Origin: Tubulanus polymorphus
Taxonomy: Eukaryota; Nemertea; Palaeonemertea; Tubulaniformes; Tubulanidae
Assembly: GCF_964204645.1 (NCBI RefSeq)
Contig: NC_134032.1
Location: forward strand, 16,430,775-16,494,774
Direction: 5' to 3'
DNA length: 64,000 nt
In this document: piece after piece, positions 37,401-40,400 of the stretch
Layout of the letters: each line of letters opens with the position of its first letter
Position numbering within the stretch: position 1 is the stretch's first letter
Translations under genes and position numbers: made by a program
The notes under the pieces: generated by a model
Told to the model about the DNA's origin: nothing
The model's input: only the letters and a program-made list of their open reading frames with translations
Database searches by the model: none

Positions 37401-40400
37401 GGTTTCTGGGGGCAGGTCAGTTACGGATGGGTTTCTGGGGGGATTCAGGTACGTGTGGGTTTCTGGGGGCAGGTCAGGTACGTGTGGGTTTCTGGGGGCA
37501 GGTCAGTTACGGATGGGTTTCTTGTGGAGGGGGTGCTACTCTCTAATTCAGGGGTACTACCGTGTGTATCAATGTGTGTTTATAATTCAGGGTACTATCG
37601 TGTCATGTGATGAGATGTTTGCGTACCTACACGGTGTTACAACTACTGATGAAATTATTGGACAGAAAATCACGAGTTTAATTCCTTCAATTCAACTACC
37701 GGATATAACAGCACATCACAATACTGTCCTACCGAAGGTTTGTTCCGGTATCTGTGCAGGGGTAGGAGAGCACGGAGGGGAGGGGAGCATGGAGGGAAGG
37801 GGAGAGGGAGGGAAAGGGGAGTATGTATTTTAGATATTTATATATCGATGATATTTGTAGTATATCAGCAGTCAACAAGCGACCGGTCGCAGTCAAACTG
37901 GTCGATCATTCCCGTGTTCAATACGTATTAAAACAGTGAAACGAACTGATAAACCAGAAATCACTGATCTACGCAGATTACTGTTAGATAAACCTGAACA
38001 AAGTGGTAAGTGATCTACATGTGCTGAGTGATCACAAACTGATCAAAGCGCTGAGTGATCACAAACTGATCAAAGCGCTGAGTGATCACAAACTGATGAT
38101 GTATGTTTTTAGGGCGTTTGAATTGGTCAATTGAAAATGAAGGTCGTTCCCCGAACACTATCGGTTCGTCAAGTACCGAAGAAGGAGAAATCTTCTCTTC
38201 CCGTAAGTCAATTCCAGGACGGCGGACTGGCGGGGAGAGATGAGGGGGGCGGGGAGAGATGAGGGGGGTGGGGAGAGATGAGGGGATTCATATCGAGCTG
38301 TTTGTTTATTTCAGCTGAATCAGTTGCGTCATCGCCCAGTAATACATGTAATACAGTGTTGTATCGAGCTGTTGTATGTGTTTATACTAATATCAGTGGA
38401 CTCGTTACGTTTCTCAATGATGGTTCTCTACACAGCATCAATCACTCATTCGTTCACATGTTATTTGGTTACACACAACAGGAAGTCATTGGAAAGGTAT
38501 TTATTTTATCTTCTATATATCTATTTTCTCTGCTACATATGATTTTGATATTGTATTACAGGATATCGCGTCGTTTGATATTGTATTACAGGATATCACC
38601 TTGTTTGATATTGTATTACAGGATATCGCGTTGTTTGATATTGTATTACAGGATATCGCGTTGTTTGATATTGTATTACAGGAAATTACGTCGTTTGATA
38701 TTGTATTACAGGATATCGCGTCGTTTGATATTGTATTACAGGATATCGCGTCGTTTGATATTGTATTACAGGATATTACGTTGTTTGATATTGTATTACA
38801 GGATATCGCGTCGTTTGATATTGTATTACAGGATATCGCGTCGTTTGATATTGTATTACAGGATATCGCGTCGTTTGATATTGTATTACAGGATATCGCG
38901 TCGTTTGATATTGTATTACAGGATATCGCGTCGTTTGATATTGTATTACAGGATATCGCGTCGTTTGATATTGTATTACAGGATATCGCGTCGTTTGATA
39001 TTGTATTACAGGATATCGCGTCGTTTGATATTGTATTACAGGATATCGCGTCGTTTGATATTGTATTACAGGATATCGCGTCGTTTGATATTGTATTACA
39101 GGATATCGCGTCGTTTGATATTGTATTACAGGATATCGCGTCGTTTGATATTGTATTACAGGATATCGCGTCGTTTGATATTGTATTACAGGATATCGCG
39201 TCGTTTGATATTGTATTACAGGATATCGCGTCGTTTGATATTGTATTACAGGATATCGCGTCGTTTGATATTGTATTACAGGATATCGCGTTGTTTGATA
39301 TTGTATTACAGGATATCGCGTCGTTTGATATTGTATTACAGGATATCGCGTTGTTTGATATTGTATTACAGGATATCACGTTGTTTGATATTGTATTACA
39401 GGATATCATGTTGTTTGATATTGTATTACAGGATATCACGTCGTTTGATATTGTATTACAGGATATCACGTTGTTTGATATTGTATTACAGGATATCACG
39501 TTGTTTGATATTGTATTACAGGATATCATGTTGTTTGATATTGTATTACAGGATATCGCGTCGTTTGATATTGTATTACAGGATATCATGTTGTTTGATA
39601 TTGTATTACAGGATATAACGTTGCTGATACCAGATTTCTATGATTTATTAGAATCTATTGATACGGAGGATTCTTTACCTCTTCCTCCTCTTGATGATTA
39701 CGATGAAGATGAAGAATATATCGCAAAGGATTCTCAAGTTAGAGGTACGTCAGTCAACTGGTCAATCGGTTAACCAGTCGGTTTTTCAACTGGACAGTCA
39801 GTCGGTGTTTATATCTATTACAGGTCGATGTGATGATGATTTAGGAATTGGTAAAAGTATCAGCTCCGATTCAAACAGTGGCGCCACCTGCACATCTCCT
39901 AAACTTCACTGCGATGATCTCCGGTAAATATCGGATATTGCTCGAGTTCTCTGCAATATTGAGTTGTTGTTGTAAACTCCTCAGCTTTAAGGGACAGTAC
40001 AGTTAGAGCGATCCTGTTTACTGTTTGGGGGCAGAGGTAAAATAAACTATCAGTTATAACGAGTCACACGTGAACTAAGAATCAATCTGTGTGTCGTCTG
40101 TTGATGAAAACTGATGAACAATTTTATTGTTGTTTGGTTCTAGCGAGGACTCTGACTCTGACTCTGACTCGACTCCGACTCAGCGAGTCTCTGTGTCATT
40201 ACTAATTGCTGTATTGTGTGTTTATTATTACAGATGTGAAACTGCTGAATTGATTGAAGAAGCAAATAAAATGATTCATGCAAACATATTCAACAACAGT
40301 GACTCTCAAACTGTAGAATCTGAACGTCATGACTCACAAAATGTAGAATCTGAACGTCATGACTCTCAAAATGTAGAATCTGAACGTCATGACTCACAAA

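Follow-up and report, generated by a model that had tools for sequence, protein, structure and literature searches.

A minisatellite carrying 36 acceptor copies across the intron 9/exon 10 boundary of a predicted PASK gene in Tubulanus polymorphus

Based on the analysis of a 64,000-nucleotide window of the Tubulanus polymorphus genome, we describe an array of splice acceptors at the end of intron 9 in a gene assigned to PASK. The array (38544..39611, forward strand) contains 36 copies of TTTGATATTGTATTACAG at a period of 30; after 35 of them comes a 12-nt version of the opening of exon 10. By analogy with amphioxus genes, we interpret it as a minisatellite that spans an intron/exon boundary, i.e. 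a "mirage". Its growth was probably neutral, with the exon-proximal acceptor making the functional PASK.

Gene model and product

The host gene was modelled by hand, without RNA, as 20 coding exons on the forward strand (34490..44124), with 19 GT-AG introns and a single clean frame of 1222 amino acids. Searching the PDB with the kinase part gave a single hit within the cut-off applied (E 4.5e-111), to 3dls, a PAS domain-containing serine/threonine-protein kinase. At the level of sequence similarity this identifies the gene as PASK, the name it bore in the preliminary description, which had also placed a donor at 38497 and the AG of the last acceptor ending at 39611, both in agreement with the hand-made model. 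Pfam recognized Pkinase and, at residues 219-316, PAS_9 in the product.

The array separates exon 9 (38315..38496, forward strand), which ends in EVIGK, from exon 10 proper (39612..39744, forward strand), to which the 36th acceptor gives entry. At the exon 9/10 junction (after residue 519), Pfam reported no PAS domain at E-values up to 0.01. The product of the 36th acceptor has weak matches across this junction to FixL (E 0.0054) and two further PAS chains (E 0.41 and 0.59), by which the junction may be placed in a PAS block. All three alignments shown are ungapped, and therefore the last acceptor yields a normal-looking PAS segment, as expected of the 3'-most acceptor when the array was first described. 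In exon 12 (40300-40515), a separate 30-bp repeat of 7.2 copies lies inside the open reading frame.

For the surrounding region we used a gene finder whose training material was first PASK and afterwards its own predictions, with no RNA and no coding score given to arrays, so its figures are rough. The setting used gave 16 predictions with 191 exons; a first run, which merged everything, and a strict setting, which left 3 genes, were both dropped. Eighteen of the 20 PASK exons were predicted exactly, and both arrays of the gene (the second, in intron 5, is described below) were split into false small exons, for which reason the hand-made PASK model was preferred.

Anatomy of the acceptor array

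Each unit combines the last 18 nt of intron 9 with 12 nt of the start of exon 10, and there are 35 extra units. The base following the 36 occurrences of the 18-mer runs from 38562 to 39612, with a spacing of 30 in 35/35 cases, which confirms the acceptor count, period and common phase originally proposed. TRF delimited the array at 38544-39616 (period 30, 35.8 copies, 96% matches, 0% indels). The splice signals are thus duplicated with the unit, the same 18 nt being kept at all 36 acceptors. The exon frame is stop-free over the 35 units (350 codons, 38562 to 39612), again as previously claimed; one of the other two frames is stop-free as well, and the remaining one has 35 stops. The decapeptide that was said to repeat throughout is exact in 21/35 units, where it has its commonest form, while the other 14 carry variants of it (forms present in 5, 4, 3, 1 and 1 units).

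Without the repeat, intron 9 would measure 65 nt, made up of 47 unique nucleotides (38497..38543, forward strand), which hold the donor GTATTT and a pyrimidine-rich stretch, and one 18-nt end. A 301-base probe gave at least 11 matches in the genome of this animal, all within the array locus.

Units 9-24, sixteen in succession, share one sequence, and variants are found towards both edges of the array. The mean difference from the 12-nt exon start is 2.1 for units 1-8 and 25-35 and 3.0 for units 9-24, these being plain averages without a statistical test. The identical middle, together with edge variants that are nearer to the exon start, gives the array the look of a minisatellite born at the boundary and expanded inside, and supports the earlier suggestion that the repeat spread from the exon boundary. 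None of the 18 intron-derived columns varies, compared with 6 of the 12 exon-derived ones. Under the assumption of equally mutable columns this invariance has a chance of 0.0016, in a test chosen post hoc, and it could mean constraint. Among the six variable columns, four alter the residue and two are synonymous. CpG decay was considered as their cause and appears insufficient alone, as the exon reads ACGTTG and the GCGTCG form looks derived.

Comparison with known boundary repeats

As far as the available excerpts of the two amphioxus papers go, mirages are minisatellite-like repeats over intron/exon boundaries in Adh3, the globins BflGb6 and BflGb9, troponin C and PGBD5, and AG/GT signals occur in many of their units, although not in all (PMC3087553, PMC3902484). 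Adh3 units measure 10-72 bp, the BflGb6 mirage has 6 and 3 units of 150-160 bp in two haplotypes, and BflGb9 has one 157-bp duplicate (PMC3087553, PMC3902484). The globin mirages show concerted evolution inside the cluster with the boundaries excluded (PMC3087553). According to the same sources, regular splicing seems to be undisturbed, judging from Adh3 data and from RT-PCR of the globins (PMC3087553, PMC3902484). The PASK array likewise has a boundary-spanning unit in a real gene, duplicated splice signals and edges excluded from homogenisation. Both kinds of array have units that join an intron end to an exon start (in amphioxus also an exon end to an intron start) and a homogenised middle, and the 30-bp PASK unit lies inside the Adh3 range. 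The PASK array differs from the mirages, as excerpted, in having 36 acceptors with every one intact and every unit in phase. By this analogy the kind of structure is already known, and the PASK array is a striking example of it in its length and its 36 intact in-phase acceptors.

The excerpted survey of internal tandem repeats in human segmental duplications describes minisatellites with units of ~30 bp on average, some over exon-intron boundaries, where splicing can be altered; its authors kept 27 intron modifications (PMC2812944). The PASK array resembles these repeats in unit size and position, whereas the human ones have about 4 units on average and are discussed as a source of new introns via cryptic splice sites (PMC2812944). 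Within the limits of these excerpts, the amphioxus precedent favours undisturbed splicing and the human precedent favours mixed transcripts. NAGNAG tandem acceptors, in the part of the source available, are also alternative frame-keeping 3' splice sites, but each is a pair of sites separated by a few bases, whose alternative use changes single residues, with no 30-nt minisatellite (PMC2875228). Among the matches listed in open-licence literature on minisatellites and splicing and on PASK repeats, no title or abstract opening names a PASK acceptor array.

Choice among the acceptors

We scored the acceptors with a matrix and ranked them against 106 other predicted acceptors. The first acceptor of the array has the best score, 17.1 (94th percentile), compared with 15.1 (81st) for acceptor 36. 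The 12 other array acceptors with listed scores range from 13.0 to 15.1, and all 14 of the 36 listed in this way lie at or above the 65th percentile. The donor of intron 9 is on the weak side (29th percentile). Acceptor 1 scores best because the unique pyrimidine-rich stretch lies just upstream of it alone, and isoforms with 10n extra residues are therefore possible; it would also have been the working acceptor at the birth of the array. Enriched words, together with a motif fitted to 106 introns, pointed to a weak ACTGATG-like branch-point motif, of which the TTTGATA of the unit, starting 18 nt before the exon, is a moderate match. Acceptor 1 has one better candidate further upstream, and the motif is too weak to choose an acceptor. 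The strict gene-finder setting entered exon 10 via an upstream unit (coding length 4719 versus 3669), an outcome without weight, as arrays were unscored and longer introns costlier.

We take the exon-proximal acceptor as the probable main one, with the upstream acceptors as possible minor ones that add 10n residues. Only one acceptor-side array was found on a trusted exon, which is too few to establish an exon-proximal rule for acceptors in this animal.

It is unlikely, in our estimate, that the upstream acceptors, chiefly the first, are often used, which would make the array largely exonic and insert 10 to 350 residues in the PAS block; equally unlikely is the variation in insert length between transcripts and alleles that would follow. 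The high score of acceptor 1 and the frame that is open through the whole array would suit frequent upstream use, as would the human boundary tandem repeats, where, in the excerpt available, 66% of intron modifications also have transcripts in which the repeat stays in the exon (PMC2812944). However, acceptor 1 would leave an intron of 65 nt, shorter than all 107 kept introns, even if just 3 nt under the shortest of them (68), and the insert would fall at a site that is ungapped in each of the three PAS alignments shown. Protein-level constraint is not seen in the repeat, in which four of six variable columns change the residue. AlphaFold gave one confident model out of five for 12 units (pLDDT 89; the others 51, 39, 25 and 23), and this repeat fold had no PDB match better than E 0.095. 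Less probable still is a stronger version that treats the array as a working ladder of 36 near-equal acceptors. Such a ladder would produce a family of PASK proteins differing by multiples of ten residues within the PAS sensor block; the share of each isoform would depend on how far its acceptor lies from the donor, and the repeat number of the individual would alter the sensor directly.

Donor-side arrays in PASK and nearby genes

The second array of PASK is on the donor side. The donor of exon 5 (36650..36790, forward strand) is the first copy of an array in intron 5 (36791..37522, forward strand) with 14 further donor-like GT copies in 115-bp and 28/29-bp units. Stops precede twelve of these copies, and use of another (offset 29) would shift the frame; the remaining copy (offset 144) keeps an open frame and the phase, so that its use would lengthen the product by 48 residues. 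In contrast to the acceptor array, where all 36 acceptors are intact, 4/20 loosely matched copies in intron 5 have no GT. Over 36650-37522, some of the copying of the exon 5 donor takes in a large part of exon 5 as well, in the 115-bp units.

Three more donor-side arrays were found nearby. A glutamate-receptor-like gene, of which a 107-residue piece matches Lig_chan-Glu_bd with E 9.9e-07 and 29.3 bits (just missing the Pfam cut-off of 30), has two of them on the forward strand, one with 4 copies at a spacing of 60-64 (48603..48843) and one with 4 copies at a period of 40 (50670..50836). All three further copies of donor 48619 are behind stops; among the three of donor 50692, two are behind stops and one is out of phase without a stop. 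The last array, on the reverse strand of the flank at 144092 in window-based coordinates, has a ~50-nt period and belongs to a gene that we call SHPRH-like by eye from its predicted protein. At a loose threshold it has 18 further copies, which share 6 exon nucleotides and the intron start and are all behind stops.

In 4/4 donor-side arrays the copy nearest the exon is the real donor, and 37 of the 38 further copies would break the frame or add a stop; therefore phase is not generally kept in boundary arrays. On the donor side, "exon-proximal" and "first transcribed" describe one and the same copy, so these arrays cannot tell the two apart.

Repeat density and survey of boundaries

The window occupies 16.43-16.49 Mb on a contig of 16.68 Mb, some 0.2 Mb short of the contig end, in a genome of 268 Mb and 77 contigs. 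The survey covered a 264-kb stretch around the window, plus two 10-kb pieces from the interior of other contigs. With this stretch divided into 20-kb bins, array cover in the 13 full ones varies from 6.4% to 47%, as against 0.6% and 10% in the interior pieces, a comparison with two pieces being too small to call the density an end effect.

Boundaries were counted for 107 introns with both flanking exons of at least 60 nt (214 boundaries). Arrays with a period of at least 9 occupy 39% of the bases of these introns, compared with 6% of predicted exon bases, yet only 5/214 boundaries are wholly inside such arrays. Boundary arrays thus seem to arise rarely, as a side effect of the repeat richness of the region, rather than at a favoured site. 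In a separate count, three or more near copies were found at 5/214 boundaries, namely the PASK donor and acceptor, the SHPRH-like donor, donor 48619 of the glutamate-receptor-like gene and a weak predicted donor at -64699, which has 75 copies and was set aside as a likely gene-finder error. Donor 50692 is among all 350 predicted boundaries and outside the 214, its next exon being 43 nt.

Among the matches listed for the wider set of 350 predicted boundaries, 51888 and donor 44909 (3 copies each) were set aside, as was an acceptor-like series at 148437-148001 (7 copies, spacing 81-91) with others beside it, the predicted exons being tiny (14-32 nt). The seven acceptor-like repeats at 148437-147970 (window-based coordinates, flank, reverse strand) may be a boundary array or a plain intron repeat; if on a real exon, the series would be an out-of-phase acceptor-side array.

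Phase, stops and selection

The preliminary description had taken the common phase and the lack of stops as a possible sign of selection. We built 30-nt units (18 intron nt and 12 exon nt) from the 107 regional introns, and 74/107 were stop-free. If one period in three is assumed a priori to be a multiple of three, the chance of an open, in-phase array is about 0.23, so one such array is unsurprising and selection is unneeded. Lack of stops in a young array also carries little weight, because only 4/90 single-base changes of the unit create one. The second open frame and the out-of-phase donor-side arrays nearby weaken the argument further, and selection on phase was rejected. Purifying selection on the decapeptide at the protein level was likewise unsupported, given the residue-changing columns; no variable column falls in its FDIVLQ part, where no synonymous change was found among the array units.

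It therefore seems very improbable to us that the array is maintained by selection as a splice-site device, e.g. one tuning exon 10 inclusion or length isoforms. The intact, in-phase state of all 36 acceptors and the invariance of the 18 intron-derived columns would fit such a device, but this sameness is explained by recent expansion, as seen in the 16 successive identical units, and the region is rich in arrays. Scarcely any credence is due to an assembly artefact with a true array far shorter or longer, as the units differ, with variants towards the edges, and the array, at 1.07 kb, is below the length of usual long reads. Near-identical units are difficult to assemble, and one amphioxus mirage was, according to the excerpted source, aberrantly assembled in the genome draft (PMC3087553), but the boundary duplication would stand even with a wrong count.

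Proposed origin and significance

In the neutral reading that we prefer, the intron would originally have been 65 nt long, and a 30-nt piece made up of its final 18 nt and the opening 12 nt of PASK exon 10 would have been tandemly duplicated. Slippage or unequal exchange would then have added units until there were 35 extra ones, the middle of the array becoming uniform during expansion. Its phase would have been set by the unit length and the exon frame, without selection. The functional PASK mRNA would join donor 38497 to the exon-proximal acceptor at 39612, which is proposed because this acceptor alone leaves the PAS block free of inserts, and from the upstream acceptors nothing beyond minor isoforms, longer by 10n residues, would be expected.

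Whichever isoforms are made, the locus offers a natural test of spliceosomal choice among 36 almost identical acceptors at fixed spacing, and intron 5 of PASK provides the mirror case with donors in the same gene. If the acceptor ladder were true, repeat-number variation among individuals would change the PAS sensor directly. That several genes within a single small region carry boundary arrays also bears on the movement of intron ends and on intron origin.
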